Shown here one piece after another: positions 30,732 through 46,697 of a DNA stretch of 47,924 nt (positions within the stretch are counted from its first letter, which is position 1; each line of letters starts with the position of its first letter). The translations under genes and the position numbers were made by a program. Origin of the DNA: Devosia sp. 66-14. Lineage in GTDB: Bacteria > Pseudomonadota > Alphaproteobacteria > Rhizobiales > Devosiaceae. The notes below the pieces were generated by a model that saw only the letters and a list, made by a program, of their open reading frames with translations, was not told where the DNA came from and made no database searches. The stretch spans positions 1 through 47,924 of the forward strand of contig MKVB01000006.1 of NCBI GenBank assembly GCA_001899085.1. The letters run 5' to 3'.

Positions 30732-31721
30732 ATGGACATGCAGGCATTCGACTTCGTACGGCAGCTGGCGGCATCGCACTATCTCGTGCGGGCGCTGCAC
30801 GTGGTTGCCGACCTCGGAGTGGCAGACCAGCTCGGCGACCGACCGACAGCGAGCCAGTTGGCATCGAGGCTCGACGCCGATGCGGACGCGCTGCGGCGCG
30901 TTCTCACCCTGTTGGCGTCACGCGGCGTCTTTCGCCTCGACGGCGACCACATCCAGCATAGCAACGCGTCGGAATTCCTCCGCAGCGACCACCCTGCCTC
31001 ACTGCGATCGTTCGTTCGGATGTTCGGCCAGCAGATCCAGTGGCAATGCGCCGGAGACCTGCAGCACGCGGTACGGACCGGCGAGGCCGTGGCGACGCGC
31101 GCCTTCCGCGGCGGTCTGTGGGGGTATTTCGAGGAGAACCCGACCGACGGTCGGATATTCGGCGAGGCGATGGTGGCCAAGTCCGCCGCGCAGATCGCCG
31201 ACATCCTTGCCGCACACGACTTCTCGCCCTATCGCAGCATCGCCGACATCGGCGGCGGACACGGGCATATGCTGCGCGCTATCCTCGCGCGTCATAGCGC
31301 GGCCACGGGATTGTTGTTCGACCTGCCGGCGGTAATCGATGAAGCCAAGGGCGCCGGGGACAATAGCCGCCTCTCGTTCCAGTCCGGCGATTTCTTCACC
31401 ACCCCGCTGCCGCAGGCCGACGCCATGCTGCTGATGGAGGTGCTGCACGACTGGGACGACGCACATTGCGGCGCGATCCTCAATGCGGCGCGGCTGGCGC
31501 TCGGGGCCGCGGGCCGCCTGCTGATCATCGAGATCGAGATGACCGAGGGCTCGGCCCCCGATTGGCCGAAGCTGCTCGATATCGTGATGCTGACCCTGTT
31601 CGCGGCGCGACAGCGTACCAATGCGGAGTATGCGCGATTGCTGCAAGCCAACGGCTTCCGCGTCGAGCGGCAGACCAGCACGCCGGGCGGTGTCACGATC
31701 ATCGAAGCCATGGTGGCGTAG
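30732..31721 (+). CDS. SAM-dependent O-methyltransferase (COMT/PF00891 type)
   Basis: 329 residues. An N-terminal winged-helix dimerisation domain (residues 1-85, RALHVVADLGVADQLGD...LRRVLTLLASRGVF) precedes the Rossmann methyltransferase core with DIGGGHGHMLRAIL (SAM motif I) and LLMEVLHDWDD, whose His is the usual catalytic base. Such enzymes methylate hydroxyl groups of small aromatic or polyketide-like molecules. ATG 30732 has an excellent AAGGAGGG site, so the alternative GTG 30714 is rejected. The physiological substrate is unknown. Confidence 0.88.
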   Translation: MDMQAFDFVRQLAASHYLVRALHVVADLGVADQLGDRPTASQLASRLDADADALRRVLTLLASRGVFRLDGDHIQHSNASEFLRSDHPASLRSFVRMFGQQIQWQCAGDLQHAVRTGEAVATRAFRGGLWGYFEENPTDGRIFGEAMVAKSAAQIADILAAHDFSPYRSIADIGGGHGHMLRAILARHSAATGLLFDLPAVIDEAKGAGDNSRLSFQSGDFFTTPLPQADAMLLMEVLHDWDDAHCGAILNAARLALGAAGRLLIIEIEMTEGSAPDWPKLLDIVMLTLFAARQRTNAEYARLLQANGFRVERQTSTPGGVTIIEAMVA

Positions 31722-31784: not shown

Positions 31785-32210
31785 TCAGTCGACGATGCGC
31801 AGCTCGACGGTGCGGCCCTGGTCGAACCAGGTCTCGATGCCGGCAACCTTCAGCTCGAGGCCGCCTTCGATGACCTCGCCGATATAGGAGATCGGCAGCG
31901 GCTCCTCGGCCGTGTCATCGCCATAGACGACGCAGAACTGCTGGCGCGGGCTGTAGAAGCACACCGAGCCGGCGCCGCTGCCATACTTGGCGCGGCGTTC
32001 GCGGCCGACATCCTCGGTCAGGTACTTGTTCTCCCACGGCGCCACGATCGGCAGGGTGAAGAACACCATGTCGCCGATCAGCTTGCCGTGCTGCAGCATG
32101 GTGACCATTGGCAGCTTTTCGCGCAGTTCCTTGGCGAGCTTGGGAACCTTGTCTTCCCACACCTCGATCGTGCAGACATCCTTGCCCGCCACAGCCATCT
32201 TCAGTTTCAT
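31785..32210 (-). CDS. Cyclophilin-like fold protein (DUF3830 / cucumopine-synthase-like)
   Basis: 141 residues, no signal peptide. The order of strands and turns (KLKMAVAGKDVCTIEVWEDKVPK, KLPMVTMLQHGKLIGDMVFF, GSVCFYSPRQQFCVVYGDD, PLPISYIGEVIEGGLELKVAG) is that of the bacterial cyclophilin-like fold found in DUF3830 and in cucumopine synthases. Cucumopine synthase condenses L-histidine with 2-oxoglutarate (Pictet-Spengler type). Here the fold is a separate gene directly after a helical partner gene (32243) and a polar amino-acid ABC transporter. Synthesis or breakdown of a histidine-derived compound is inferred, not shown. The longer frame to 32375 overlaps the neighbour; ATG 32210 is preferred. 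Confidence 0.65.
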   Translation of the reverse strand: MKLKMAVAGKDVCTIEVWEDKVPKLAKELREKLPMVTMLQHGKLIGDMVFFTLPIVAPWENKYLTEDVGRERRAKYGSGAGSVCFYSPRQQFCVVYGDDTAEEPLPISYIGEVIEGGLELKVAGIETWFDQGRTVELRIVD

Positions 32211-32242
32211 AATCAAACGTCCTTCGTGTTCGTGCGGGGATC

Positions 32243-32719
32243 TCAGGCGGTCTTCTTGCGACGGAAGCCGTCGCCGAGGCCCCACGGCAGGATGAAATCG
32301 ACCCACATGTGCAGGCGGTTGGCATAGCTCAGCATGGCATGGGTGAGCCGCACCAGGTCGGCGACCGTGGCGCATTCCATCGCGGTGTCGACGTAGATCT
32401 TGGTGATCGCGGCGGCTTCCGGCAGGCTGACGAAATCGAAGAAGTCGGCCTTGTAGCCGATGATCTGCTTGATGATCGCCTGCAGGGTCTTGAGGTCCGC
32501 GTCGGTGTCCTCACCGACCCGGATGATGCCCCACAGCATTTCGTCGGCGAGGGTGCGGGTTTCACCCTCGGCGAAGATGATGGTGCTCAGGTACTGGCCG
32601 CGCGAACCGGTGCCGCGCGGAACTTCGCCACGTCCCAGCGCCAGTACGTCATCGGGGCCCTGAAGCCAGATGCGTTGCCGCTCGCTCTCGAAGTGCTGGA
32701 TGGCTTCATCCACAGTCAT
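32243..32719 (-). CDS. All-helical protein resembling the cucumopine synthase C-terminal helical bundle
   Basis: 158 residues, predicted almost entirely helical, no signal peptide. Segments such as LADEMLWGIIRVGEDTDADL, LQAIIKQIIGYKADFFDFVS and ATVADLVRLTHAMLSYANRL resemble, from memory, the helical bundle that follows the cyclophilin-like domain in cucumopine synthases. It precedes the cyclophilin-like gene by 32 bases, so the two could form a two-subunit version with reversed domain order. Family identity is tentative. It follows the ABC ATPase gene after a 76-base gap holding a weak hairpin (GGGAGC 32763-32768 / GCTCCC 32779-32784). Confidence 0.55.
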   Translation of the reverse strand: MTVDEAIQHFESERQRIWLQGPDDVLALGRGEVPRGTGSRGQYLSTIIFAEGETRTLADEMLWGIIRVGEDTDADLKTLQAIIKQIIGYKADFFDFVSLPEAAAITKIYVDTAMECATVADLVRLTHAMLSYANRLHMWVDFILPWGLGDGFRRKKTA

Positions 32720-32795
32720 AGTCGTCTCCTAAACTTGAACAGGCTTTGGTGGTTTCCGGTCCGGGAGCGCTGTCCGTGGCTCCCGTCCGGGATGG

Positions 32796-33560
32796 CTAGA
32801 GAATGTGCGCGAGGAAGCTCCTGGCGCGCTCGGTCCGCGGGCGGTCGAACAGTTCGGACGGCGGCGAGCATTCGACGATCCGCCCCTCGTCCATGAACGC
32901 CACGCGGTCGCAGACCTCGCGGGCGAAACCCATTTCATGGGTGACGACGACCATGGTCATGCCGTCGGCCACAAGGCCCTTCATCACCTCGAGCACTTCA
33001 CCGACCAGCTCGGGGTCGAGGGCGGAGGTGGGCTCGTCGAACAGCATCAACTTAGGCTGCATGGCCAGGGCCCGGGCGATGGCGACGCGCTGCTGCTGCC
33101 CGCCGGAGAGTTGCGAGGGGTAAGAGTCGGCCTTGTGACCGAGCCCAACCCGCTCGAGCAGCGCCCGGGCGCGCTCGGTGGCCTCGCTGCGGCGCTCCCT
33201 TTTGACCTGGATCGGCGCTTCGATGACGTTTTCCAGCGCCGTCTTGTGGCCGAACAGGTTGAAGCGCTGGAACACCATGCCGATCTCGGCGCGCTTGGCG
33301 GCGGTCTCGTTTTCGCTCAGTTCGTGCAGCGCGTTGCCGCGCCGCTGATAACCGACCAGTTCCCCGTCGACGCTGAGATAGCCCGAGGTGATCTTGGTGA
33401 GGTGATTGATGCAGCGCAGAAAGGTCGACTTGCCCGAGCCTGAGGGGCCGATCAGGCTGACCACCTCGCCGCGCGCCACGTCGAAATCGACGCCGCGCAG
33501 GATCTCGAGGTGGCCGATCTTCTTTTCGACGCCACGGGCTTCCACCATGAGATGGCTCAT
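32796..33560 (-). CDS. Polar amino-acid ABC transporter ATP-binding protein (HisP/GlnQ type)
   Basis: 254 residues. Walker [10 protein letters not shown], signature [15 protein letters not shown], Walker [15 protein letters not shown] and [10 protein letters not shown] with the switch His are intact. The insert after VDGELVGY (about 20 residues, [18 protein letters not shown]) is common in the HisP-like subgroup. ATG 33560 overlaps the permease TGA (ATGA), so the two are co-translated. It powers uptake through the permease at 33557-34459. Confidence 0.92.
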
Positions 33561-34459
33561 GTGCGGTCTCCCTGGTTGGTACCGACCGGGGTCGCGCCGC
33601 GCCCGTAATAGGCCTCGATGCGCGCCTGCACGACGCTGAGCAGGCTCGTGAGCACCAGGTACCAGCAGCAGCACACCAGCAGCAGCGGGATGGTCTCGAA
33701 GGTGCGCGAATAGATCGCCTGCGCCGAATAGAGCAGATCGGACAAGGCGATGACGCTGACCAGCGAGGTCATTTTCAGCATGCCGATGGTTTCATTGCCG
33801 GTGGGCGGAATGATGAAGCGCATGGCCTGCGGCAGGACGATACGGCGCATCGACTTGAGGCGCGGCATGCCGAGCGCCCGCGCGGCCTCGTCCTGGCCTT
33901 CATCGACCGAGGAAATGCCGGCGCGCACGATCTCCGCCATATAGGCACCCTCGTTCAGCGCCAGCCCGAGAATGGCGGCGGCAAGCGGGGTGATGATGTC
34001 GTTGGTGCGGAACTCGATCAGCGTCGGGCCGAACGGAATGCCGAGGCCGAGATTGGGAAAGAGCGCCGCCAGATTGTACCAGAAGATCAGCTGGACCAAG
34101 ATCGGCGTGCCGCGGAAGAACCAGATATAGAGCCGCGCGAAGCCCGAAACGATGCGGCTGGGCGACATGCGCATCACCGCGATGACGATGCCGAGCAAGA
34201 CGCCGAGGCTCATGCACAGGGCCGTCAGCCAGACGGTGGTGGCGAGGCCCTGCAGGATTGTCGGGGTGAACAGGTAGCTGCCGACCACGCCCCACTCGAA
34301 GCGCGGGTTGAACACCACGCCGTCGAGCAGCATCAGGGCCAGCACGATCACGATGGCGATCGGTATCCAGCGGTAGCGGCCATTGCGCGGAACGATCCGC
34401 AGATTGGCCAGTTCGGGAGGTGCGCGCTCCGTGTCCGGCAGCTCACGTTCGATGGTCAT
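33557..34459 (-). CDS. Polar amino-acid ABC transporter permease (HisM/GlnP type)
   Basis: 300 residues. An 80-residue N-terminal part includes one additional membrane segment ([19 protein letters not shown]). The permease domain then runs from [20 protein letters not shown] and ends in the coupling loop [38 protein letters not shown] is the classic signature. A single permease gene means a homodimeric channel. It follows the binding-protein gene after a hairpin (34484-34515). Confidence 0.92.
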
Positions 34460-34483
34460 CTGTTCTTCCAGTCCAGAGGGAAT

Positions 34484-34515
34484 GCCTGGCGGCCACGCTC
34501 GGCGGGCCGCCAGGC
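34484..34515 (-). terminator. Hairpin between binding-protein and permease genes of the amino-acid operon
   Basis: GCCTGGCGGCC (34484-34494) pairs perfectly with GGCCGCCAGGC (34505-34515), loop 10 bases. There is no T-run. Same position and style as the hairpin at 7292-7320 in the sugar operon; probably sets the ratio of binding protein to permease. Confidence 0.6.
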
Positions 34516-34534
34516 CAGGTCGGGCAGGAACCGC

Positions 34535-35470
34535 TTACGGCTCGGGATAGGGCAGCGGCTTGGAGGCCGCAAGATTGATGCCCGGCTCTTCGATTTCGAG
34601 CGGCGAAATGTTCCACTTCGCCATGACCTTGGAGTAGACGCCCTCGGCCTGCACGGCCTTCAGCGCAGCGAGCAGCGCTTCGGCGAGCTGCATGTTGTCC
34701 TTGGCGACGACCATGCCGTTGTAATACTTGGGCAGCAGCTCGTTCTCGACGAAGCGGACCGGCTGCGGCGCAGCGGCCTTGATCGCCGTGGCGGCGGCGA
34801 GGCCATCAAGCACGAAATCCGAACGACCCGAGTAGAGCGACAGCAGCACCTGGTCGCCCGAGGGGTATTCGCTGACCTGGACCGCCGGCTTGCCGTTCTT
34901 TTCGCAGCGCGGCGTCATCACCTTGTTGGCGACGTTGACGAAGTCGAAGCCCTGCTGGATGCCGACCTTGAGGCCGCACAGCGACAGCGGATCATCGGTG
35001 ATCGTGGTGTTGCTGGCGAGGGTATAGACGGCGCCGGTCGAGTAGGCGTGAACGACGAAGTTCACCTTCTTCTCGCGCTCGAGATTGTCCGAGATGCACT
35101 CGGAGGCGACGTTGTAGCGTCCGCTTTCGACGCCTGGGATCAGGCCGGCGAAGGCGATGGACTCGACTTCGTAGGTAATGCCCAGCTTCTGCGCGATGGC
35201 GTTCCACAGGTCCGGCTCGTAGCCGATGATCGTGGTGTTGTCGGAGGCGAAGGACTGGCACGGCGGATAGTGCGCGTCAGTGGCGATGGTGATCTTGCCG
35301 GCATCCTGGATGGATTGCGGCAGCATGGCGTGAAGGGCATCGTCCTTTTCGAGCACCGGAAGGCCGGAGCCGACCACCTCGGCAAATTCCTCGGCCATCG
35401 TCATGCCCACGCCTGAGGCGAGGACAGCACTTGCCGCGACGGCGACAAACAGCGTTCTCATTCGGGTCAT
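34535..35470 (-). CDS. Polar amino-acid ABC transporter substrate-binding protein (SBP_bac_3 type)
   Basis: 311 residues. A signal peptide ends near residue 26 (GMTMA). The mature protein has KITIATDAHYPPCQSF, IIGYEPDLWNAIAQKLG, GVESGRYNVASECISDNLEREKKVNF and LCGLKVGIQQGFDFVN, the family 3 pattern for amino acids and opines. The two-lobe fold is complete. The usual acidic residue that pairs with the ligand's amino group is not obvious to me, so the ligand may not be a standard amino acid. ATG 35470 follows AGGAGAG. It is the first gene of the operon and divergent from a HutC-like regulator. Confidence 0.9.
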   Translation of the reverse strand: MTRMRTLFVAVAASAVLASGVGMTMAEEFAEVVGSGLPVLEKDDALHAMLPQSIQDAGKITIATDAHYPPCQSFASDNTTIIGYEPDLWNAIAQKLGITYEVESIAFAGLIPGVESGRYNVASECISDNLEREKKVNFVVHAYSTGAVYTLASNTTITDDPLSLCGLKVGIQQGFDFVNVANKVMTPRCEKNGKPAVQVSEYPSGDQVLLSLYSGRSDFVLDGLAAATAIKAAAPQPVRFVENELLPKYYNGMVVAKDNMQLAEALLAALKAVQAEGVYSKVMAKWNISPLEIEEPGINLAASKPLPYPEP

Positions 35471-35998
35471 TGTGTTCTCTCCTGTATGCGATCGGAAGGT
35501 ACACCTCCCCTTCCGTCGGCAAAAAGTATGTACAAAAGCGAATGCCCGTCAATCGCCATCAGCACCTGTTTCGTCCATTTTTTGTGCGCTATCGTTCGCA
35601 GCCCAAAGTTTGATCAGCGCGACGCAACGCGTGGCGCCCTGAACGGACGCAACCTTCGGCGCCGCTTGGGGCGCGACTTCGCCAGCCTGGCATCGGGGGA
35701 GCCAGGGAGCGGGAAATATCTTGCATCGGGGCGCCCGCCCTTCATCCTCCTCAGGGGGCGGTGCATCAGAGTTTGCCGAGGGCGACGCTCCTCCGAACGT
35801 CGACGGGAAACCATGTGTTGTACGGCGAGAGATTATGGACAGTCAGATTTTATGTCTATACCTATTTGGGACTATGTGTTCACGTATTGCTGTGTCCGCG
35901 GGCGACCCACCGATCACCAAGAAACGCCACCGGAACTGCGGGCGGCGTAACATTGAGGGTGGGGCGTGCCAGGAATTGGGGAAACGGGAGCTTTGCCG
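35471..35998. promoter_or_regulatory. Long divergent regulatory region between the amino-acid operon and the GntR regulator
   Basis: About 530 bases without a convincing gene, with two AT-rich patches. GTATGTACA (35526-35534) and TGTCTATACC (35853-35862) both resemble the TGTATATACA-type operators of HutC-like GntR proteins and lie near the two divergent starts. CGGAAGG (35493-35499) and CCTTCCG (35509-35515) form a 5' leader hairpin before the binding-protein gene. The GC-rich middle (35620-35820) shows no recognisable coding content. Confidence 0.5.
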
Positions 35999-36796
35999 AT
36001 GACGACCAGATCAATTGCGGCCGCGGCACAAGCTGATCTGCCGGAGCCTGCCCCGGCGATCGCGCAGGCCGCGAGCCTGTCGGAAACCATCCAGCGCGAC
36101 ATCGAGGACAAGATCATGTCGGGCAAATGGGCCCCGGGCGCCCGGATCCCCAACGAGTCCGAGTTCATGACCGAGTACAAATGCTCGCGCATGACCGTCA
36201 ACCGCGTGCTGTCGCGCCTGTCGGAACGCGGCCTGATCGTCAGGCGGCGCAAGGCAGGTTCGTTCGTTGCATCGCCACGCAGCGACAGCGCCATGTTCCT
36301 GCAAATCCGCGACTTCGCCCGCGAGGCGGCGGGCCAGGGCCGGCGCTATCGCCACGAGATCCTGCTGCGCCGGGCTGAAAGACTGTCAGACGCGCGGGCC
36401 CGCAGCCTGCAGCTGGAGAGAAACCAGCAGGTGCTGCGGGTGCTCTGCCTGCATGTGCTCGACGACCAGCCCAATGCCTATGAGGATCGCGTCATCTCGC
36501 TCGACAAGGTGGCGGCGGTGCGCGACGAATCCTTCGACGAGGTGCCGCCGGGCACCTGGCTGCTGGGCCACGTGCCCTGGTCCGAGGCGCGCCATACCAT
36601 CAAGGCGGTGAATGCCGACGCGACGCTCGCCGGCATCCTCGGCATCGAAGAACACGCGGCCTGCCTCGTGCTCAACCGCCGCACCTGGCACCAGGGCGAG
36701 TTTGTCACCGACGTGGAAATCACCTACCCCGGCGCCGGGCACGAACTGACCGGCGAGTTCTCGTCGACATTCGGTGAACTGGCGCCCAACAAATAG
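35999..36796 (+). CDS. GntR-family regulator of the HutC subfamily (UTRA domain)
   Basis: 265 residues. The winged helix (residues about 30-100) has SETIQRDIEDKIMSGKWAPG, RIPNESEFMTEYKCSRMTVN and RVLSRLSERGLIVRRRKAGS. The UTRA effector domain follows (RHEILLRRAERLSDARARSL, LLGHVPWSEARHTIKAVNAD, CLVLNRRTWHQGEFVTDVEI). It is clearly a paralogue of the HutC at 45954. HutC senses urocanate; this copy may sense a related imidazole compound. ATG 35999 has GGGAG 8 bases upstream; the GTG at 35966 is less likely. It probably controls the divergent amino-acid/cucumopine-like operon and the following kinase gene. Confidence 0.85.
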   Translation: MTTRSIAAAAQADLPEPAPAIAQAASLSETIQRDIEDKIMSGKWAPGARIPNESEFMTEYKCSRMTVNRVLSRLSERGLIVRRRKAGSFVASPRSDSAMFLQIRDFAREAAGQGRRYRHEILLRRAERLSDARARSLQLERNQQVLRVLCLHVLDDQPNAYEDRVISLDKVAAVRDESFDEVPPGTWLLGHVPWSEARHTIKAVNADATLAGILGIEEHAACLVLNRRTWHQGEFVTDVEITYPGAGHELTGEFSSTFGELAPNK

Positions 36797-36837: not shown

Positions 36838-38532
36838 ATGAAGAAGCTCATCAACGATATCCCTTCGGTCGTGCGGCAGTCGCTCGAGGGCCTGGCGGCG
36901 CTCTATCCCGGCCTGGCGCTGCTCGGCGGCGAGAACACCCTGGTGCGGGCCGACCTCGCGAGCTTCGTTGCGAGCGGCAAGGTGGCGATTGTCACCGGCG
37001 GCGGCGCCGGCCACGAGCCGGCGCATGCCGGCTATGTCGGCAAGGGCATGCTGACGGCCGCGGTGAGCGGCGACGTGTTCGCTTCGCCCAGCACCGATGC
37101 GGTCTACACGGCGCTGCGGGCCGTGGCCAATCCGGCGGGCATCCTGGTGATCGTCAAGAACTATACCGGCGACCGGCTGAATTTCGGCCTCGCGGTCGAG
37201 ATGGCGCGCGCCGATGGGGTCGCCGTCGAGATGGTGATCGTCGATGACGATGCGGCGCTCGGCAAGGCGGAACGGACCGCCGGTCGGCGCGGCATTGCCG
37301 GCACGGTCTTCGTGCACAAGGTCGCCGGCGCTGCGGCGGAAGCCGGCCTGCCGCTGAGCGAAGTGAAGGCCCGGGCGCTGGCCGCCATCGGCGCGGTGGG
37401 GTCGATGGGCGTCGCGCTCTCGCCCTGCACGGTGCCGGCCACCGGCAAAGCCAATTTCTCGCTCGGCGATGACGAGATGGAACTGGGGCTCGGCATTCAC
37501 GGCGAAGCCGGGGTGCGGCGCGTCACCATGCAGCCGGCGCAGCAGGTGGTGGAGACGCTGCTCGACACCATTATTGCCGACCGCGGCCTGGTCGGCGGCG
37601 ATCGGGTGGCGCTGCTGGTCAACAATCTGGGCGGCACCGCGCAGATGGAAATGAGCATCGTGGCGCGCGATGCCCTCCAGACGCTGCGAGCGCGCGGCCT
37701 CACCGTCGAGCGGGCCTATTGCGGCACCTTCCTGACCGCCATCGAGATGACCGGGGTATCGCTCAGCCTGATCAAGGCGGACGCAGCAGTGCTCGCCGCC
37801 CTCGACGCCCCAGCCGAAGCGCCGGCCTGGCCGGGCAACCACGGTCGGCTGCCGCTCGCAGCGATGTCGAGCCTCGCCGCTCCCGCCACCGACGACGAAG
37901 CGGATGGCGGCGCCGGCATGGCAACGCCAAAGGAACTGGTGGCCATCCTCAGCGCCGCCTGCCGCGCCATCATCGCCGCGGAACCGGAGTTGACCGAAAT
38001 GGACCGCATCGTCGGCGACGGCGATATCGGCCATTCACTGGCCGGCGGCGCGACGGCGCTGCTGCAGCGGGCCGCCGGCTGGGAGGGCCGCCCGCTCGAC
38101 GCCGTGCTGCGCGAGATCGGCCTGACGCTGAGACGCAGCGTCGGCGGGACCTCGGGACCACTCTATGCCGCCTTCGCCATCGCGGCGTCGCAGACGGCTG
38201 CGCGGAGGGAGGAAGATGGCGCGGCATTGCTCGCCCGTGCCGTCGCCGCAGGTACCGATGCGATCATGCGACTGGGCGGCGCCGGTGCCGGTGATCGCAC
38301 CATGCTGGATGCGCTGATCCCTGCAGCGTCGGCGATGGGCGGCGGCGCGACGATCGCGGCGACGCTGGAGACTGGTGCCCGCGCCGCGCGTGCCGGGGCA
38401 GAAAGCACTGCGGCGATGCAGCCGCGGCGGGGCCGCTCGAGCTATATCGGCGAGCGGGCGGTCGGGCACCCGGACCCGGGCGCCGTGGCGGTGGCGCTGT
38501 GGCTGGAGGCGGCGGCGAAGGCGGCGGGCTGA
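36838..38532 (+). CDS. Dihydroxyacetone-kinase-type enzyme, DhaK-DhaL fusion (ATP-dependent)
   Basis: 564 residues. The DhaK half (1-330) has GGGAGHEPAHAGYVG (54-68) and ELGLGIHGEAG (215-225), whose His221 forms the covalent hemiaminal with the substrate carbonyl. The DhaL half (from about 365) has DGDIGHS (394-400) with the Mg-ATP aspartates and SVGGTSGPLYAAF. The fused form uses ATP directly rather than a phosphotransferase system. Dihydroxyacetone, glyceraldehyde or erythrulose are known substrates. ATG 36838 follows GGAGGAG, 41 bases after the GntR regulator, so the pair looks co-transcribed. The link to the amino-acid operon is unexplained. Confidence 0.9.
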   Translation: MKKLINDIPSVVRQSLEGLAALYPGLALLGGENTLVRADLASFVASGKVAIVTGGGAGHEPAHAGYVGKGMLTAAVSGDVFASPSTDAVYTALRAVANPAGILVIVKNYTGDRLNFGLAVEMARADGVAVEMVIVDDDAALGKAERTAGRRGIAGTVFVHKVAGAAAEAGLPLSEVKARALAAIGAVGSMGVALSPCTVPATGKANFSLGDDEMELGLGIHGEAGVRRVTMQPAQQVVETLLDTIIADRGLVGGDRVALLVNNLGGTAQMEMSIVARDALQTLRARGLTVERAYCGTFLTAIEMTGVSLSLIKADAAVLAALDAPAEAPAWPGNHGRLPLAAMSSLAAPATDDEADGGAGMATPKELVAILSAACRAIIAAEPELTEMDRIVGDGDIGHSLAGGATALLQRAAGWEGRPLDAVLREIGLTLRRSVGGTSGPLYAAFAIAASQTAARREEDGAALLARAVAAGTDAIMRLGGAGAGDRTMLDALIPAASAMGGGATIAATLETGARAARAGAESTAAMQPRRGRSSYIGERAVGHPDPGAVAVALWLEAAAKAAG

Positions 38533-38542
38533 GCAAAGGCCC

Positions 38543-38660
38543 CCTCACCCGGCCCTGTGGGCCGACCTCTCCCCCAAGGGAGAGGGGGTGCGGTGGCGTC
38601 GCCCTGGCCTCTCTTCCCTCTCCCTCGGGGGAGAGGTTGAAGCGTCAGAGTCGGGTGAGG
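38543..38660. repeat. Composite palindromic intergenic repeat
   Basis: Outer arms CCTCACCC (38543-38550) and GGGTGAGG (38653-38660) enclose two hairpins: CCTCTCCC (38566-38573) with GGGAGAGG (38578-38585), and CCTCTCCC (38617-38624) with GGGAGAGG (38629-38636). This is the style of dispersed intergenic palindromes in Rhizobiales-like genomes. Its right end forms the last codons and stop of hutD (38645). It may also act as a bidirectional terminator. Confidence 0.75.
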
Positions 38661-39223
38661 AGGCTCTGCGATGGTCCGATTTCGACGACCAGCATCGCCC
38701 CCTCGACAGCTAGGGTACCGGGGCCAATGATCAGGCAATCATAGCGGCCGAGTGCCGGGCGTTCGCCGCGAACCTCCACCACCCCTGCTCCGAGCGAGAG
38801 CAGCGCCAGGGTCATTCCCGGCGCAACGGCAAGCTCGTGTCGGCCGGCCCCGAGCCGGCGCACCGTGTGCGCCGCCACGCCGCGCGCCGTCATCACGTTG
38901 AAATCGAGGGTCGCGCCCGCAGTGACGCGCCCATCGACGCGGGTCTCACCGGGAAACGACCACTGGTCGCCCGGCAGCAGGGCTATCGGATCGGCCCTGC
39001 CCTCGATATGCAGCGACAGCCCACCGCCTTCGAGCAGCACCAGCGTCCGATCGACGCCGGGAAAGAACGAGAACGGGCCATCCCGATCGACCGTCGCGAT
39101 GCTCAGCCGCCAGGCAAAGCCCGGCGCCTGATCGGTATCTTTCGCCGCAGCCACTTCGCGCGTCGCCCCGCCGCCGTTCTTCCACGGCTGCACGGTGAGA
39201 TCGGCGAAGCGGATGAGGCGCAT
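38645..39223 (-). CDS. hutD: HutD family cupin
   Basis: 192 residues. The opening MRLIRFADLTVQPWKNGGGATREVA, FAWRLSIATVDRDGPFSFFPG and RTLVLLEGGG are the HutD signature; the fold is a bicupin. HutD is thought to limit histidine breakdown by binding urocanate or formylglutamate, rather than catalyse a step. It is the last gene of the hut operon, 8 bases after hutU. Its C-terminal codons and stop lie inside the palindromic repeat (38543-38660), so the native end may have been altered by the repeat. The frame extends to 39499 over hutU; ATG 39223 fits the family. Confidence 0.9.
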   Translation of the reverse strand: MRLIRFADLTVQPWKNGGGATREVAAAKDTDQAPGFAWRLSIATVDRDGPFSFFPGVDRTLVLLEGGGLSLHIEGRADPIALLPGDQWSFPGETRVDGRVTAGATLDFNVMTARGVAAHTVRRLGAGRHELAVAPGMTLALLSLGAGVVEVRGERPALGRYDCLIIGPGTLAVEGAMLVVEIGPSQSLLTRL

Positions 39224-39231
39224 GGAAGAAC

Positions 39232-40899
39232 TCAGCCGAGAATACCGGGAAGATCGAGTTGCTTCTCCCGTGCCGTCTCGATGGCAATTTCGTAACCGGC
39301 ATCGGCGTGGCGCATGACGCCGGTCGCCGGGTCGTTCCACAGCACGCGGCCCAGCCGCCTGGCCGCCGCTTCGGTGCCGTCGGCGACGATCACCACGCCG
39401 GCATGCTGGGAGAACCCCATGCCGACGCCGCCGCCATGGTGCAGCGACACCCAGGTGGCGCCGCTGGCGGTGTTGAGCAGGGCGTTGAGCAGCGGCCAAT
39501 CCGACACCGCATCGGAGCCGTCGCGCATCGCCTCGGTCTCGCGGTTGGGCGAGGCGACCGAGCCGGAGTCGAGATGGTCGCGGCCGATGACGATCGGCGC
39601 CTTCAGCTCGCCGCGGGCCACCATCTCGTTGAAGGCCAGGCCGAGGCGATGGCGGTCGCCGAGCCCCACCCAGCAGATGCGCGCCGGCAGCCCCTGGAAG
39701 CGGATGCGCTCGCGCGCCATGTCGAGCCAGTTATGCAGGTGCGCGTTGTCGGGCAGCAGTTCCTTGACCTTCTGGTCGGTCTTGTAGATGTCCTCGGGGT
39801 CGCCCGACAGCGCCACCCAGCGGAACGGCCCGACGCCGCGGCAGAACAGCGGACGGATATAGGCCGGCACGAAGCCGGGGAAATCGAAGGCGTTCTCGAC
39901 CCCCTCTTCCAGCGCCATCTGGCGGATATTGTTGCCGTAGTCGACGGTTGGGATGCCCCGCTGGTGGAACTCCAGCATGGCCCGCACATGCACCGCCATC
40001 GAAGCCTTTGCCGCCTTGACCACGCTGGCGGGAGCCGAGGCACGGCGGTCTTCCCATTCGCCGAGTGTCCAGCCGGCCGGCAGATAGCCGTTGAGCGGGT
40101 CGTGCGCCGAGGTCTGGTCGGTCACCGCATCGGGGCGGACACCACGACGCACCAGCTCGGGCAGGATCTCGGCGGCATTGCCGAGCAGGCCGACCGACAC
40201 GGGCTTGTTATCGGCACAGGATTTCTCGATGATCGCCAGCGCCTCGTCGAGATCGCTGGTGTGGGTGTCGAGATAGCCGGTGCGCAGGCGGAAATCGATG
40301 CTGCTGGGCCGGCACTCGATGGCGAGGCAGGAGGCACCCGCCATGGTCGCGGCGAGCGGCTGCGCGCCGCCCATACCGCCGAGGCCGGCGGTGAGGATCC
40401 ACTTGCCGGCAGGGCTGCCGCCAAAGTGCTGCCGCCCCATCTCGACGAAGGTCTCGTAGGTGCCCTGCACAATGCCCTGCGCCCCTATATAGATCCACGA
40501 GCCGGCAGTCATCTGGCCGTACATGGCCAGGCCCTTCTTATCGAGCTCGTTGAAGTGCTCCCAGTTGGCCCAATGCGGCACGAGGTTGGAATTGGCCAGG
40601 AGGACGCGCGGCGCGTCGGCATGGGTGCGGAACACGCCGACGGGCTTACCCGACTGGATCAGCAGCGTCTGGTCGTCGTCGAGCGCCCGCAGGCTGGCGA
40701 CGATCCGGTCGTAGCTCTCCCAGTCGCGGGCGGCCCGGCCGATGCCGCCATAGACCACCAGCTCCTCGGGCCGCTCGGCCACTTCGGCATCGAGATTGTT
40801 CATCAGCATGCGCAAGGGCGCTTCGGTGAGCCAGCTCTTGGCGGTGCGTTCAGTGCCGCGCGCCGCGCTGATCGAGCGGGAATTGTCGAGACGGGTCAT
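39232..40899 (-). CDS. hutU: Urocanate hydratase
   Basis: 555 residues, normal family length. Urocanase landmarks: [49 protein letters not shown] (NAD+ site), [18 protein letters not shown] with the conserved Cys, and [19 protein letters not shown]. It converts urocanate to imidazolonepropionate using tightly bound NAD+. ATG 40899 has AAGGA 8 bases upstream; a TTG 18 bases earlier is a less likely start. It lies between hutG and hutD. Confidence 0.97.
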
Positions 40900-40913
40900 T
40901 GGCCGGTCCTTAG

Positions 40914-41738
40914 TCAAGCAAGGGAGGTTGCGAAGTCGCGGCAGGCTTCGAGCACCTGGCGCAGCGTGCGCCGGGTGGGCGCGGCGAATTCGGGGTCGTA
41001 GGGCGTGGGCCAGTTCGAGGCATCAACCTCGGCGGGTTCGCGGATGTAGCTGCGGCAGGCGAGCTCCATCTGCACGGCGTGAACGGCATGCGTCGGGTTG
41101 CCGGTACTGCGAACGATCTGGCCGCCCCGGAAGCGGCCATTGACCACGTGAGACTGCCCGGACGCCGCGAGGATGGCCTCGATCCGCCCTGAAAGCTCCG
41201 GAGCACAGGTGGCGCCGAAATTGGTGCCGAGATTGAACACCGGCAGGTCCCCATCGAACAGCCGAGGGATACGCGAGCGGATCGAGTGGCAGTCGTAGAC
41301 AACGATCGCCGGGTGCAGGCCGCGCAGCCGCTCGACCTCGTCGTGCAGCGCCTGGTGGAACGGCGCGAACCACTGCGCCTGCCGCCGTTCGATCTCGGCG
41401 GCGTCGGGCGCTTCGCCATCGCGATAGAGCGGCTCGCCGTCGAAGCTGGTGGTCGGACAAAGCTCGGTGGTCGCCTGGCCCGGATAGAGCGACACACCGC
41501 TCGGATCGCGGTTCACGTCGATGACGGTGCGCGAGACCCTGGTGCGGATCACCGTGGCGTCGAGGTCCTCGGCGAAGTCGTAGAGCTGGTCGATCCACCA
41601 GTCGGTGTCGCGGCGCCCAAGCCAGGGCGAGGTCAGCCGCTTAAGGATCGGATCGGGAATCTCGGTGCCGGTATGCGGCAGGGTGACGATGAGCGGTGCC
41701 GAACCGCGCCGGATTTCCAGCCAATCCAAGGCGCTCAC
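40914..41738 (-). CDS. hutG: N-formylglutamate deformylase
   Basis: 274 residues. [47 protein letters not shown] and [20 protein letters not shown] are the N-formylglutamate amidohydrolase motifs with metal-ligand His and Asp. It releases formate and glutamate, the last step of the HutF route, and hutF is present at 44544. The GTG start at 41738 overlaps the hutH TGA (GTGA), so translation is coupled. Confidence 0.95.
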
Positions 41739-43270
41739 CCTTCCACTCCGGGCAGCTCGATCGCCGCCGCCGCAACCAGCGCGCCGCTCCGGACGAGACC
41801 GGTGGCGAAGGCCATGTCCGGAGCAAAGTAGCGGTCGTCGTCGAGCGTGGGGATGTTGGCGCGCAACAAGGTGCGCACCCGCTCCAGCGCTGCGCTCGAG
41901 CGCAGCGGACGGTGGAAATCGCAGCCCTGCGCCGCCGCCAGCAATTCGATGCCGATGACGTTGGCAGTGTTGGCGGCCATGTCGAGCAGGCGGCGAGCGC
42001 CATGCGTCGCCATCGACACGTGGTCTTCCTGGTTGGCCGAGGTGGGAATGGAGTCGACGCTGGCCGGATGGGCCCGCTGCTTGTTCTCCGACACCAGCGC
42101 CGCGGCGGTGACCTGCGGCAGCATGAAACCCGAATTGAGCCCCGGATTTGGGGTGAGGAATGCCGGCAGGCCGGAGAGCGCCGGATCGACCAGCATGGCG
42201 ACGCGGCGCTCGGCCAGCGAACCGATCTCGCACAGCGCCAGCGCGATGATGTCGGCGGCGAAGGCCACGGGCTCGGCGTGGAAATTGCCGCCGGAGATGA
42301 CCTCGCCGGTGTCGGCAAAGACCAGCGGATTGTCGGAGACGCCGTTGGCTTCGTCGCCGAGGGTGGCCGCGGCCTGGCGCAGGATGTCGAGCGCCGCACC
42401 CATCACCTGGGGCTGGCAGCGCAGGCAGTAGGGATCCTGCACGCGGGTATCGCCGACCAGATGCGACTGCCGGATCGGCGAGCCGTGCATCAGGCTCCGC
42501 AGGGCCGCGGCCGTTTCGATCTGGCCACGATGCCGGCGCAGTTGCTGGATGCGTGGATCGAACGGACCGTCGGAACCCTTGGCCGCATCGGTGGCCAGCG
42601 CGCCGGTGACCAGAGCCGATTGCAGCACGCGCTCGGTTTCGAACAGGCCGGCGAGCGCGAGGCCGGTCGAAACCTGTGTGCCGTTGAGCAGCGCCAGGCC
42701 TTCCTTCGGCCCGAGCGCCAGCGGCTCAAGCCCGATGCGCGCCAGTGCCTCGGCGGCATCGAGCCGCTCGCCGGCAAGCTCGACCTGCCCGACTCCCAGC
42801 AGCGCAGCGGTCAGATGCGCCAGCGGCGCCAGATCGCCGGAAGCGCCGACCGAGCCCTGCCCCGGGATCAGCGGCACCAGGTCGTTGGCGAGGCAGGCCT
42901 CGAGATGTTGCAGGGTCGACCAGCGGATGCCGGAAGCCCCCTGCCCGAGGCTCGCGAGCTTCAGCGCCATGATCAGCCGCACCACGGCGCGTGGCAAAGG
43001 CTCGCCCACGCCGGCCGCATGCGACAGCACGATATTGCGCTGCAGCACCGACAGGTCGGTGTCGGCGATACGGACGCTCGCCAGCTTCCCGAAGCCGGTA
43101 TTGATGCCATAGACCGGCTCGCCCTTGGCGATGATGGCATCGACGACGGCAGCGCTCAGCGCCACCGGGGCCTCGGAGCCCGGATCGAGCGACGCGGCGG
43201 CGCCGAAATAGATGTCGCGCCAGATGGAAAGCGTAACGTTGCCAGGCGAAAGGATGTGGCGGGCAGACAT
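41735..43270 (-). CDS. hutH: Histidine ammonia-lyase
   Basis: 511 residues. [16 protein letters not shown], then [15 protein letters not shown] whose Ala143-Ser144-Gly145 cyclise into the MIO electrophile, followed by LNGTQVSTG and [29 protein letters not shown] and [13 protein letters not shown] complete the pattern. It deaminates L-histidine to urocanate, the entry step of the pathway. ATG 43270 is 2 bases from the hutI stop; the frame runs on to 43453 without support. Confidence 0.97.
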
Positions 43271-43272
43271 AG

Positions 43273-44466
43273 TCAGGATCGGCCTTTTGAGATGCGGGAA
43301 TGGAGTGGGTTGAAACCCATGCGGTAGACGAGTTCGGCCGGCGTCTCGGCGTCCCAGATCGCCAGGTCGCAGGATTTGCCGACGGCAATGCTGCCGCTGG
43401 TGGCGGACACCCCCAGCGCCTCGGCCGCATGGCGCGTCACGCCGAGCAGGCACTCCTCCACAGTCAGGCGGAACAGCGTCGCCGCCATGTTCATGGTCAG
43501 GAGGATCGAGGTCAGCGGCGAGGTGCCGGGGTTGCAGTCGGTGGCGATGGCGATGGGCACGCCGTACCGGCGCAACAGGGCGACAGGCGGGACAACGGTC
43601 TCGCGGAGGAAATAGTAGGCTCCCGGCAGCAGCACGGCGACGGTCCCGGCGGCGGCCATGGCGCGCACGCCGGCTTCATCGAGATGTTCGAGGTGGTCGG
43701 CGGAGAGCGCGCCGTAGCGTGCGGCGAGCGCCGCGCCACCAAGGTTGGAGAGCTGTTCGGCATGCAGCTTCGCCGGCAGCCCGAGCCGCTGCGCCACGTC
43801 GAATACCCGGGCAATCTGCTGCGGCGAAAAGGCGATGCCTTCACAGAAGCCATCGACAGCGTCGACCAGCCCCTCGGCGGCGAGGGTCGGCAGCATCTGG
43901 CTACAGACCTCGTCGATATAGGCATCCTTGTCGGTCGTTCCCGGCGGCAGCGCATGGGCGCCCAGAAAACTGGTGCGCACCGTCACCCCGCGCTCGCGGC
44001 CCAGTTGCCGCGCGGCGCGCAGCATGGCGCGCTCGGAGGCGAGCTCGAGCCCGTAGCCGGACTTGATCTCGATGGTGGTGACGCCCTCAGCCAGGAGATG
44101 ATCGAGCCGCGGCAGCGCCGAGGCGACCAGCTCGGTCTCATTCGCGGCACGAGTGGCGCGGACACTCGAGGCGATGCCCCCGCCGGAGCGGGCGATCTCT
44201 TCATAGCTCGCCCCGGCGAGCCGGAGCTCGAACTCGCGGGAGCGATTGCCGGCGTGGACGATGTGGGTGTGGCAGTCGATCAGCCCCGGCGTCACCAGTC
44301 GGCCGCCGCAATCGACCACGACATCGTCGCGGCGCTCGCCCAATGCATCGCGTGGACCAACATGGGTGATGAGGCCGTTTTCTTCGGCGATCACCTGTCC
44401 GTCAGCAACCGCGATACCGCCGGCCATCGGCGCAATCCTGGCATTGACGAACAGCTGTCGAGGCAT
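43273..44466 (-). CDS. hutI: Imidazolonepropionase
   Basis: 397 residues, an amidohydrolase-superfamily enzyme. [13 protein letters not shown] holds the first metal histidines (66 and 68), KLHAEQL a later one, and [14 protein letters not shown] the conserved Asp. It opens the ring of 4-imidazolone-5-propionate to N-formimidoyl-glutamate. It is the first gene of the minus-strand hut operon; the promoter region with a HutC-type operator lies directly upstream (44467-44543). Confidence 0.96.
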
Positions 44467-44488
44467 GGCAACGATCCGAAACTTGATC

Positions 44489-44510
44489 TTGTATAAGGAT
44501 GTATATACAA
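44489..44510. promoter_or_regulatory. HutC-type operator between hutI and hutF
   Basis: TGTATATACA (44500-44509) is a perfect palindrome matching the known HutC consensus. A second half-site TTGTATA (44489-44495) lies just left of it, so two repressor dimers or an extended site are possible. It sits in the 77-base divergent gap and could repress both hutI-H-G-U-D and hutF-C. Confidence 0.75.
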
Positions 44511-44543
44511 TTCATTTGACGACGCAAGAGGGGGCGAAAGCCA

Positions 44544-45899
44544 GTGACGGGACTGCATTTCGACGAAGCGCTGGTGGGTGGCCGCTGGCTGGAGAATGTG
44601 CGGATCGAGCTGGCGGCCGGCCGGATCGCCGCGATCGTCCCCGACAGCGCACCGGGCCCGGGCGACGAGCGGCATGCCGTCGCCCTGCCCGGCATGCCGA
44701 ACCTCCATTCGCACGCGTTTCAGCGTGGCATGGCCGGCCTCGCCGAGACCCGCGGCACCGGCATCGACAGCTTCTGGAGCTGGCGGGAAACGATGTACCG
44801 TTTCGCCCTTGCGATGACGCCCGACGACGCCGAAGCGATCGCCGCGCAGGCCTATGTCGAGATGCTGGAGGCGGGCTTCACCCGCGTCGGCGAGTTCCAC
44901 TACCTGCACCATGACCTGGACGGATCGCCCTATTCCGATCCGGCCGAGATGGCCGCGCGGATTTGCGCCGCCAGCGACACGACCGGCGTTGGGCTGACGC
45001 TGCTCCCGGTATTGTACGCCCATGCCGGCTTCGCAGGCACGGCGCCGCAGCCGCAGCAGCGGCGTTTCATTTCCGACCTCGATCTGTTCGCCCGCATGCT
45101 CGAGCGCTCCCGCGCGCTCACCGCCGAGCTCGACAACGCCAATCTCGGGGTGGCGCCGCACAGCCTGCGCGCCGTCACGCCGGAGGAGCTGTCCGCGCTC
45201 GTGCCGCTCGCCGGCGACGGGCCGATCCATATTCACGTCGCCGAGCAGATGCGCGAGGTGGACGACTGCCTGTCCTGGTCCGGTCGACGGCCGGTCGAAT
45301 GGCTGCTGGAGAACGCCGATCTCGACCGACGCTGGTGCCTCATCCACGCCACCCATATGACCGGCAAGGAAACGGTGGGCGTGGCGGAGAGCGGCGCGAC
45401 GGTCGGTCTCTGCCCGATCACCGAGGCCAATCTCGGTGACGGAATCTTCGACGGGCTGGGTTTTCTCGCTGCCGGCGGTCGTATCGGCATTGGCTCGGAC
45501 TCCAATGTCGAGATCGGCGCGGCCGCGGAATTGCGGCAGCTGGAATACTCGCAGCGCCTCGCCCGGCAGAGCCGCAACGTGCTGGCCGAGTCCGGCGACT
45601 CGACCGGGCGGCGGCTGTACGAGCTCGGGCTGCAAGGCGGCGCGGCCGCACTCGGCCAGCCATTGGTCGGGCTGACGGTGGGGGCGCCCGCCGACATCGT
45701 GTCGCTTGATGCCGAACATCCGGCGCTGGTGGCGCGACAGCGCGACAGCCTCATCGACTCGCTGATCTTCTCGGCTGGCCGATCGGCGATAGATTGCGTA
45801 TGGACGATGGGACGAAAGCAGGTTTCGGAAGGCAGGCACGTTCGGCGCGACGAGGTGTTTCGCCGCTTCCACGCCGCCCTGTCGCGCCTCATCGCCTGA
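44544..45899 (+). CDS. hutF: Formimidoylglutamate deiminase
   Basis: 451 residues, amidohydrolase superfamily. PGMPNLHSHAFQRGMAG carries the first metal ligands (His55, His57), IHIHVAEQMREVDDCL and IHATHMTGKE the further histidines, and IGIGSDSNVE the Asp. It hydrolyses N-formimidoylglutamate to N-formylglutamate and ammonia, which HutG then cleaves. The GTG start at 44544 is preceded by a purine-rich GAGGGGGC site. It is divergent from hutI and followed by hutC. Confidence 0.95.
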   Translation: MTGLHFDEALVGGRWLENVRIELAAGRIAAIVPDSAPGPGDERHAVALPGMPNLHSHAFQRGMAGLAETRGTGIDSFWSWRETMYRFALAMTPDDAEAIAAQAYVEMLEAGFTRVGEFHYLHHDLDGSPYSDPAEMAARICAASDTTGVGLTLLPVLYAHAGFAGTAPQPQQRRFISDLDLFARMLERSRALTAELDNANLGVAPHSLRAVTPEELSALVPLAGDGPIHIHVAEQMREVDDCLSWSGRRPVEWLLENADLDRRWCLIHATHMTGKETVGVAESGATVGLCPITEANLGDGIFDGLGFLAAGGRIGIGSDSNVEIGAAAELRQLEYSQRLARQSRNVLAESGDSTGRRLYELGLQGGAAALGQPLVGLTVGAPADIVSLDAEHPALVARQRDSLIDSLIFSAGRSAIDCVWTMGRKQVSEGRHVRRDEVFRRFHAALSRLIA

Positions 45900-45953
45900 C
45901 TGCCCGCGAACCCAGGAGCTCTCAGATCAGCCACACAATGCCCGGGACCGCCC

Positions 45954-46697
45954 ATGTCGCTGATGCCTGACGCTGCCACACCGCTCTACGAGCGGGTGAA
46001 GAACCACATCCTCAGCAATATCGGCTCGGGCGCCTGGTCGGGCGACCGGCGCATTCCCTCAGAGAACGAACTGGTTGCCGAACTCGGCATCTCCCGGATG
46101 ACCGTCAACCGGGCGCTGCGCGAACTCACCGCCGCCGGCGTGCTGGTGCGGGTGCAGGGCGTCGGCACCTTTGTCGCCGCGCCGCGACCGCAAACCGACC
46201 TGCTCGAGATCAACAACATCGCCGAGGAGATCGCGAGCCGCGGCAACCGCCACCGCAGCGAAGTGCTGACGCTGGAGCAGGTGGCGACGACGCACGAACT
46301 GCGTGCGGCGTTCGAGGCGGCCAAGCTCGAGACGGCGTTTCACTCGGTGGTGGTGCACTACGAGAACGACATCGCGGTGCAGCTCGAAGAGCGGTTCGTC
46401 AATCCCGGCGTCGTGCCCAACTATGGCGCCCAGGATTTCCGCCGCCAGACCACCTACGATTATCTCGTCACCATCACTCCGATCACCGAGCTGGAGCACA
46501 TCATCTCCGCCGTGGCGGCCGACCAGCGCACCGCGCAGCTGCTTGGCATCGGCGAGGGCGACCCCTGCCTGCTGCTCGACCGCCGCACCTGGACCGGCAG
46601 CGAAGTGGTGACCGTCAACAAGCTGAGCTATGTCGGCGCGCATTATTCGTTCCGTACCCGCGCCCAGGCCAACCGCAACGCCACTCGCTACACCTGA
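45954..46697 (+). CDS. hutC: Histidine utilisation repressor
   Basis: 247 residues, GntR family. TPLYERVKNHILSNIGSGAW, RIPSENELVAELGISRMTVN and RALRELTAAGVLVRVQGVGT form the winged helix; the UTRA domain follows (RHRSEVLTLEQV, PITELEHIISAVAADQRTAQ, LLLDRRTWTGSEVVTVNKLS). HutC represses hut genes and is released by urocanate. It lies 54 bases after hutF and probably shares its transcript. The TGTATATACA site at 44500-44509 is the likely target. Confidence 0.93.
   Translation: MSLMPDAATPLYERVKNHILSNIGSGAWSGDRRIPSENELVAELGISRMTVNRALRELTAAGVLVRVQGVGTFVAAPRPQTDLLEINNIAEEIASRGNRHRSEVLTLEQVATTHELRAAFEAAKLETAFHSVVVHYENDIAVQLEERFVNPGVVPNYGAQDFRRQTTYDYLVTITPITELEHIISAVAADQRTAQLLGIGEGDPCLLLDRRTWTGSEVVTVNKLSYVGAHYSFRTRAQANRNATRYT

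Follow-up and report, generated by a model that had tools for sequence, protein, structure and literature searches.

Why would two small genes resembling the halves of an opine synthase close an amino acid importer operon beside the genes for histidine utilization (hut)? The question is raised by a stretch of 47,924 nucleotides from Devosia sp. 66-14 (contig MKVB01000006.1, positions 1 to 47,924; here called the window), in which a 158-aa helical protein and a 141-aa cyclophilin-like protein are encoded next to each other. An earlier sequence-only reading had taken them for the two halves of cucumopine synthase, which joins histidine and 2-oxoglutarate, and had suggested uptake and processing of a histidine-derived opine or related imidazole compound. 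From homology, fold, and conserved residues, the pair almost certainly represents separate subunits of the cucumopine synthase/McbB/KslB family of Pictet-Spenglerases. The best reading of the locus, to which we assign a probability of roughly 60%, is a two-subunit Pictet-Spengler-type enzyme that would degrade an imported cyclic amino acid derived from histidine.

Results

Helical and cyclophilin-like subunits

A profile search placed the 158-aa protein in Pfam Cucumopine_C with an E value of 4e-48 and 163.6 bits (cut-off, 27), and the protein matched PDB 3x27 (McbB) at 3.7e-16. Its AlphaFold model is all-helical (pLDDT, 88) and matches McbB with a TMq of 0.85 and KslB with about 0.7; the only confident matches of this partner were Pictet-Spenglerase chains. 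Seven positions (P22, G38, Q42, Y132, W139, P145, and W146) are each conserved in 88 to 98% of 51 sequences. The window protein has all seven, and the product of the T-DNA (transferred DNA) gene mis deviates at Q42, Y132, W139, and W146. Thus, the identification of the all-helical protein as one half of cucumopine synthase is borne out by the Cucumopine_C score and the McbB fold match, and 32243-32719 does not belong to an unrelated family.

The 141-aa protein had been proposed as the cyclophilin-like half, with DUF3830 as the family to search. All of its Pfam scores were below threshold: 21.6 bits for DUF3830 (cut-off, 26), 20.8 for Cyclophil_like2 (22.7), and 18.4 for Cyclophil_like (27). 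Its top phmmer match, Tako8, was discarded as an artefact, its score being built up from repeats of some 5 bits apiece. The AlphaFold model (pLDDT, 76) matches TM1367, KslB (TMq up to 0.71), 3kop, and McbB. As fold and profile match several cyclophilin-like proteins, they cannot separate these by themselves; the residues do. All 46 pair-linked or fused sequences have P23, P34, H41, G46, G81, Y96, and G97, and all but one have E103, which none of six stand-alone DUF3830 proteins has. H41 and Y96 are also frequent in these controls (four and five of the six, respectively), so that E103 alone discriminates. The controls came from five plasmids picked out of 43 matching records, and their lack of a partner was judged from annotated neighbors and from absence among the seven records matching two Cucumopine_C queries. 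The window protein carries every conserved residue of the cyclophilin part, including H41, Y96, and E103, which from their conservation are candidate catalytic residues. Profile-profile comparison (hhalign) with the riorf22/mis set of plasmid pRi1724 gave a probability of 96%. Altogether, the cyclophilin-like assignment holds on the KslB/McbB fold match (shared with other proteins), the riorf22/mis profile, and E103, whereas membership in DUF3830 was rejected on the score and the E103 control.

Stand-alone DUF3830 genes have surroundings of their own. In L074, L077, L078, and L079 (L numbers denote the records compared here), they lie beside dihydroorotase/dihydropyrimidinase-type, aspartate/glutamate-type racemase, and ureidoglycine or urate genes; no such neighbor is annotated in L076. 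A role of stand-alone DUF3830 proteins in hydantoin or ureide metabolism is possible.

The Pictet-Spenglerase family is characterized by a single polypeptide, and the window has two genes. Since split members exist elsewhere (pRi1724, Sinorhizobium medicae pMl1, and Sodalis pHS1), we treat the split as a variant rather than as a failed definition. In a profile scan of genome contigs, both halves were side by side in 20 of 20 loci, on which grounds chance adjacency was rejected, and the helical gene came first in 19. These loci include Kaistia, Sodalis sp. dw_96, Acerihabitans, Mangrovicoccus and other Rhodobacterales, and Actinotalea. The scan used a closer alignment of the helical domain (A2), nine diverse domains (A1) being too variable.

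HutC-type operators

The HutC operator published for Pseudomonas is TGTA-N2-TACA (PMC12977541). As expected of a HutC regulon, this pattern occurs in the importer promoter region of the window, with one mismatch (AGTATGTACA), and an exact copy, TGTATATACA, lies in the hut cluster (Table 1). The exact pattern is found at three places in the 5.72-Mb genome, TGTATATACA among them. AGTATGTACA touches a promoter-like match from a scan that found one, with 0.8 expected by chance. Relatives of the locus show the same arrangement. In L040 and L041, the exact site TGTACATACA precedes the importer and TGTATATACA precedes hutI/hutF; in L051 and L053, TGTCTATACA, with one mismatch, precedes both. Of the 13 sites with no more than one mismatch in the window and these four loci, 10 fall in the importer or hutI/hutF promoter. 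When the fused-gene loci L029, L035, and L064 are included, the total rises to 33 sites, of which 18 are in promoter regions, compared to 0.95 expected from length. This operator count covers 8 of the 13 hut-linked records, chosen after the first site scan, with L032, L033, and L070 outside both. No HutC-type site was found in L046 and L057, which are without hut genes, by a scan in which one mismatch was tolerated only in combination with certain central bases.

A second motif, TATGTCTATAC, stands before HutC2, the regulator divergent from the importer, and its core is conserved in L040 and L041. It fits a pattern described for the HutC subfamily (PMC4494728). Thus, judged by sequence, the importer promoter and the neighboring hut cluster share a HutC-type operator in a conserved pattern, and the window pair is likely linked to histidine catabolism.

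Homologs on Ri plasmids

The names mis and cus derive from homology and from position at the right border (PMC5606197); the records call the products hypothetical. In pRi1724 (mikimopine type), the fused mis gene lies inside the right border (L030:13889-13911; no mismatch, 0.05 expected), and the split riorf22/riorf23 starts about 630 bases outside it. Beyond riorf22/23 follow an amino acid importer, hydantoinase B and A genes, a second importer, and hutF, I, H, G, U, and D; a search of this stretch (L030) for Dak found none. riorf22 and riorf23 have already been named mis homologs of the non-T-DNA part (PMC4242671), in an account whose examined portion gives no function for them. In pRi2659 (cucumopine type), cus is flanked by border-like sites, one at L035:3475 with no mismatch and one at 18434 with two. 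Outside the T-DNA, two divergent fused homologs stand between hutH and an importer, accompanied by hutC, hydantoinase genes, hutF, and hutI, and one-mismatch HutC-type sites occur at hutH and at hutF/hutI. cus matches the bacterial gene at L035:34301-35248 over 837 bp at 99.64% identity, with divergent ends, and identical copies of cus and of this bacterial twin are present in the plasmid record pRiO132.

Over the cyclophilin part, the identity of mis to riorf22 is 53.6%, compared to 40% for riorf23 and 22% for cus. Phylogenetic analysis placed mis in the riorf23 group (support, 99/98), cus with its bacterial twin (100/100), and the window pair in a separate, third clade that comprises 18 split rows (100/100). 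A single origin of mis and cus was rejected (p-AU, 0.0005), a value to be read with caution given the long branch of mis and with the mis-plus-cus group named after the first tree had been seen. The second tree omitted 9 of the 49 rows of the first (near-duplicates and the outliers G933 and G1192) and added two PDB rows. We read these data to mean that the T-DNA synthases would have been captured at least twice from bacterial genes living with importers and hut genes. The differing right ends of Ri T-DNAs have been ascribed to recombination between Ti plasmids (PMC5606197).

Two further arrangements were seen in this part of the family. L029, L064, and L035:32963-35248 contain divergent fused-enzyme gene pairs, with opposite domain order, beside hutH. 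Cucumopine and mikimopine are stereoisomers, and there may be one such fused enzyme per stereoisomer. The S. medicae plasmid pMl1 (L031 and L036), from a legume symbiont, carries two Ri-type split pairs, one of them 96 to 97% identical to riorf22/23; recombinase, transposase, and group II intron genes occupy the same regions, and hutH lies about 14 kb from one pair.

Distribution and gene context

Cucumopine_C genes were found in 3 of the 136 family-sample genomes, 13 of the 397 order-sample genomes, and 4 of the 385 class-sample genomes (2 of these scoring above the cut-off), the window's genome included in each. In the phylum sample, the 1 genome of 398 with a match was the window's own, which contains a single such gene. 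Gene context was tabulated for 48 Cucumopine_C genes in 37 records, with T-DNA copies excluded and neighbors taken within 10 kb; no search behind this table selected for hut. Automatic detection found a cyclophilin half for 43 of the 48 genes; the five misses were distributed over L053 (two), L027, L028, and L073. Another comparison revealed a cyclophilin-like match for the first pair of L053 and for L028 and L073, and L027 is closely related to L028. The halves of L040 are separate, though tallied as the same open reading frame in the partner table, an effect of deleted stop symbols. Through de-duplication, L057 lies outside the 37-record table and the trees; its pair and kinase were seen separately.

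An ABC (ATP-binding cassette) transporter gene was present in 36 of the 37 records, the exception being the 7.9-kb contig L043. hut genes (at least 45% identity) were present in 13 records, hydantoinase A/B genes in 6, and UbiD genes in 5. As 24 of the 37 records are without hut genes, we claim the histidine link for the window arrangement and not for the whole family. Among relatives of the window pair, L043 to L050 and L052 contain a glutamine-synthetase-like gene and, in eight of the nine, a Rieske oxygenase gene, without hut; L046 has genes for a type III glutamine synthetase, a luciferase-like monooxygenase, an aldo-keto reductase, and a flavin adenine dinucleotide (FAD) enzyme. These clusters appear to represent another catabolic route.

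Several other contexts were observed. Cucumopine_C pairs lie near UbiD-type decarboxylase genes in L025 to L028 and L054, as called by family scans for L028 and L054 and by tblastn for L025 to L027. L027 and L028 also have a histidine-ammonia-lyase-like gene of about 40% identity, that of L028 barely above the HutH cut-off. In Actinotalea (L055:9992-20465), two pairs are followed by HutH-like (41%), HutU-like (59%), carbamoylase-type, and HutF-like (34%) genes, perhaps a route for thio- or N-modified histidine. Distant pairs in L072 and L073 adjoin genes that by eye resemble glutamate-synthase domains, with a glutamine-synthetase-like gene also in L072; we presume that this neighborhood is perhaps an N-methylglutamate-type cluster. 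Branched-chain-type importers are found at L021, L057, and L058, without a full hut set.

Dihydroxyacetone kinase

A Dak1 gene, the only one in the window's genome, lies 4 kb from the pair. Genomes G000, G244, G321, and G371 each have a single Dak1 gene, no more than 10 kb from the pair in every case. The arrangement of HutC2 and Dak divergent from the importer and pair is common to the window, L040, and L041. A different context occurs in Kaistia granuli and K. adipata, where one strand carries, with small gaps, the pair, a branched-chain-type importer, DhaL, DhaM, HPr, EI, a 135-aa gene, and DhaK (DhaK named from NCBIfam, DhaL from BLAST, and DhaM, HPr, and EI by eye).

Gene organization of the window

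The five importer and pair genes form an operon-like row on one strand in the order solute-binding protein (SBP), permease, ATPase, 158-aa protein, and 141-aa protein (Table 1). The permease gene is single and overlaps the ATPase gene by 4 bases; the 158-aa and 141-aa genes are separated by 32 bases. Structure comparison gave AncQR and glutamine-binding and other amino acid-binding proteins as the solved chains nearest to SBP, and the top NCBIfam models for the ATPase are polar amino acid and ectoine importers, with scores under their cut-offs. In agreement with the sequence-only reading, the pair forms the final two genes of a polar amino acid importer operon, in coordinates, lengths, strand, and order; the divergent regulator is a HutC paralog by the HutC equivalog model; and a complete hut pathway is nearby, starting 3.2 kb from the SBP gene.

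The HutC2 score was obtained from the frame beginning at 35966, and the start at 35999 is the choice of the gene caller. The kinase gene follows HutC2 after 41 bases. HutU, G, H, I, and F and the second HutC scored above NCBIfam equivalog cut-offs; HutD is a Pfam match. An O-methyltransferase gene (30732-31721, plus strand) ends just past the pair, on the opposite strand. No T-DNA border was found in the window with up to three mismatches or in the genome with up to two.

Table 1. Coordinates of the importer operon, the subunit pair, and associated features in the window
Feature	Position	Strand	Evidence or location
Cyclophilin-like subunit, 141 aa	31785..32210	-	Sub-threshold DUF3830; fold match to KslB/McbB and others; conserved residues
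Helical subunit, stand-alone Cucumopine_C domain, 158 aa	32243..32719	-	PF18631, 163.6 bits
Importer ATPase, 254 aa	32796..33560	-	ABC_tran, 127 bits
Importer permease, 300 aa	33557..34459	-	BPD_transp_1, 90 bits; HEQRo_perm_3TM, 85 bits (cut-off, 42)
SBP of polar amino acid ABC importer, operon gene 1	34535..35470	-	SBP_bac_3, 94 bits
HutC-type operator AGTATGTACA, one mismatch	35525..35534		Importer promoter region
Second conserved motif TATGTCTATAC	35851..35861		Before HutC2; fits GTMTAKAC
HutC paralog HutC2, divergent from importer operon	35999..36796	+	TIGR02018, 268 bits (cut-off, 220)
Fused dihydroxyacetone kinase DhaK-DhaL	36838..38532	+	Dak1, 397 bits; Dak2, 136 bits; NF011049, 609 bits (cut-off, 492)
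Complete hut cluster	38645..46697	hutD, U, G, H, I on -; hutF, hutC1 on +	
Exact HutC operator TGTATATACA	44500..44509		Between hutI and hutF

Discussion

The locus differs both from an ordinary importer operon and from a plain cucumopine synthase, being a split variant with linkage to hut. The suggestion that an opine-like compound derived from histidine is taken up and processed gains support from the HutC-type operators before the importer and hutI/hutF in the window and four relatives, by the non-T-DNA homologs of Ri plasmids beside importers and hut genes, and by the near identity of the cucumopine T-DNA gene with a bacterial gene. We favor the view that the pair works in the cleaving direction. 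The importer would bring in a cyclic amino acid of the tetrahydroimidazopyridine type, built of histidine and a carbonyl compound. Cleavage would then follow by a retro-Pictet-Spengler reaction of the heteromeric enzyme, in which an imidazole carbon is protonated, the ring opens to an iminium, and hydrolysis yields histidine and the carbonyl compound. HutH would remove histidine irreversibly and pull the cleavage. As a weaker part of the scheme, the carbonyl released in the window lineage could be a triose, passed to the dihydroxyacetone kinase behind HutC2. For Ri plasmids, the carbonyl partner would be 2-oxoglutarate, according to opine chemistry, so that no kinase would be needed. A catabolic role of the pair is probable and would explain the origin of the T-DNA synthases. 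The whole scheme, in which a natural two-subunit retro-Pictet-Spenglerase serves as a nutrient pathway (histidine to hut, triose to kinase) and the plant-expressed Ri synthases are two independent captures running in the opposite direction, is possible but somewhat less than an even bet.

A number of observations weigh against cleavage of a histidine adduct. Ring-forming Pictet-Spengler equilibria often lie far to the product side, so that reversal needs a strong pull, and the activity known for McbB, KslB, and the cucumopine and mikimopine synthases is synthesis rather than cleavage. The family profile of the 141-aa protein scores 2nnz and 3kop slightly above KslB. TGTA-N2-TACA with one mismatch occurs at 105 places in the genome; the importer site is therefore unremarkable alone and counts mainly through its conservation in relatives. 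The hut-linked records L055 and L063 showed no site in the scan described above, L035 lacks a HutC-type site in the interval that separates its two fused genes, and TGTATAGACA occurs roughly 0.4 kb ahead of the importer in L054, whose stretch contains no hut gene. A glutamine-synthetase-like gene lies nearby, without hut genes, in 9 of 37 records, close relatives of the window pair included; the presence there of glutamine-synthetase-like and Rieske genes instead of hut implies that substrates differ within the clade. Only 5 of 38 records have a kinase close to the pair, and G828 has its single Dak1 on another contig than its (different) pair. Given these few records and their two unlike contexts, a triose or similar ketose is a tentative assignment, and a triose in the window lineage remains on the doubtful side. 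Finally, the O-methyltransferase gene next to the pair is unexplained by a catabolic reading.

The same O-methyltransferase gene could be enlisted for biosynthesis, in which the pair would join histidine and a carbonyl compound into a secreted or stored product, opine-like or a metal ligand, that the importer recovers. McbB and KslB are described as ring-forming enzymes (PMC12513458), and the T-DNA genes cus and mis are synthases. However, the five-gene row holds no exporter or biosynthetic tailoring gene, its promoter has a hut-type operator, and the Ri-plasmid homologs sit with hut genes and importers; we regard biosynthesis as improbable. Catabolism of a ring-closed compound other than a simple histidine adduct, for example, a derivative of another imidazole or aromatic amino acid, with hut control reflecting nitrogen supply, is unlikely too, if slightly less so. 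It would suit the relatives near UbiD-type decarboxylases (L025 to L028 and L054), those with glutamine-synthetase-like and mostly Rieske genes (L043 to L050 and L052), and those with branched-chain-type importers (L021, L057, and L058), none of which has a full hut set, as well as the use of tryptophan by McbB and KslB (PMC12513458), but not the five window-type loci, where the same operator type precedes importer and hutI/hutF alike. Far less probable than either is other chemistry on the same fold, such as lactam or hydantoin hydrolysis, racemization, or decarboxylation. The company that several stand-alone DUF3830 genes keep with dihydropyrimidinase, racemase, or ureide genes, and the hydantoinase A/B genes within 10 kb in 6 of 37 records, fit such a role, while E103 (45 of 46 pair-linked or fused sequences, compared to none of six stand-alone proteins) and a helical partner that confidently matches Pictet-Spenglerase chains only argue against it.

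Retro-Pictet-Spengler cleavage of a histidine-derived compound, the reading that we prefer, would give a testable function to gene pairs currently labeled hypothetical protein and DUF3830. It also bears on the origin of opine synthases, with cus a near-copy of a hut-region gene of the same plasmid and mis grouping with the split riorf22/23 type. If the reading is true, a natural enzyme reverses the Pictet-Spengler ring closure and would be of use in biocatalysis, and histidine adducts feed bacteria without T-DNA. We know of no natural enzyme that reverses this ring closure and of no nutrient pathway described earlier that runs it backwards. In the portions of the literature consulted, no report of a catabolic role for such a pair or of the near-copy of cus was found; Hooykaas et al. 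2022 may hold part of it.

Several known systems can be set beside the window. The TGTA-N2-TACA operator is common to the window and the hut regulon under HutC, of which no cucumopine-synthase-like member was found in the parts of the literature examined. Like opine-catabolic plasmids, the window combines an importer and catabolic genes in one cluster; no T-DNA with a matching synthase was found in the window's genome, which has one Cucumopine_C gene and no border at up to two mismatches. Purely catabolic plasmids are also without T-DNA, and its absence is therefore no bar to an opine-catabolic function. A cucumopine-catabolic plasmid, pAtAg67, is attributed to Hooykaas et al. 2022 (cited in PMC10745273). 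Among characterized Pictet-Spenglerases, KslB acts on L-Trp and 2-oxoglutarate in the kitasetaline pathway and McbB belongs to that of marinacarboline (PMC12513458). Both of these enzymes match the fold of both window subunits and carry the invariant residues of the cyclophilin part; the conserved residues of the helical part were compared with McbB and 9uwa. Unlike the window pair, they are fused single chains of secondary metabolism with tryptophan as the substrate. To our knowledge, neither has an importer or hut context.

The Ri plasmids come closer. riorf22/23 of pRi1724 resembles the window in having a split cyclophilin-like and Cucumopine_C pair beside an amino acid importer and hut genes, and differs in that the cyclophilin gene comes first, the pair belongs to another clade, and hydantoinase genes are present. 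cus and its bacterial twin share the two domains with the window, helical first, and the twin lies between importers and hut genes; they differ in being one polypeptide, plasmid-borne, and of a different clade. In the mannopine/agropine Ti systems, T-DNA synthesis genes are reportedly homologous to bacterial catabolic genes (mas to moc and ags to agc). The enzymes of those systems are unrelated to Pictet-Spenglerases and perform other chemistry, with no Pictet-Spengler ring.

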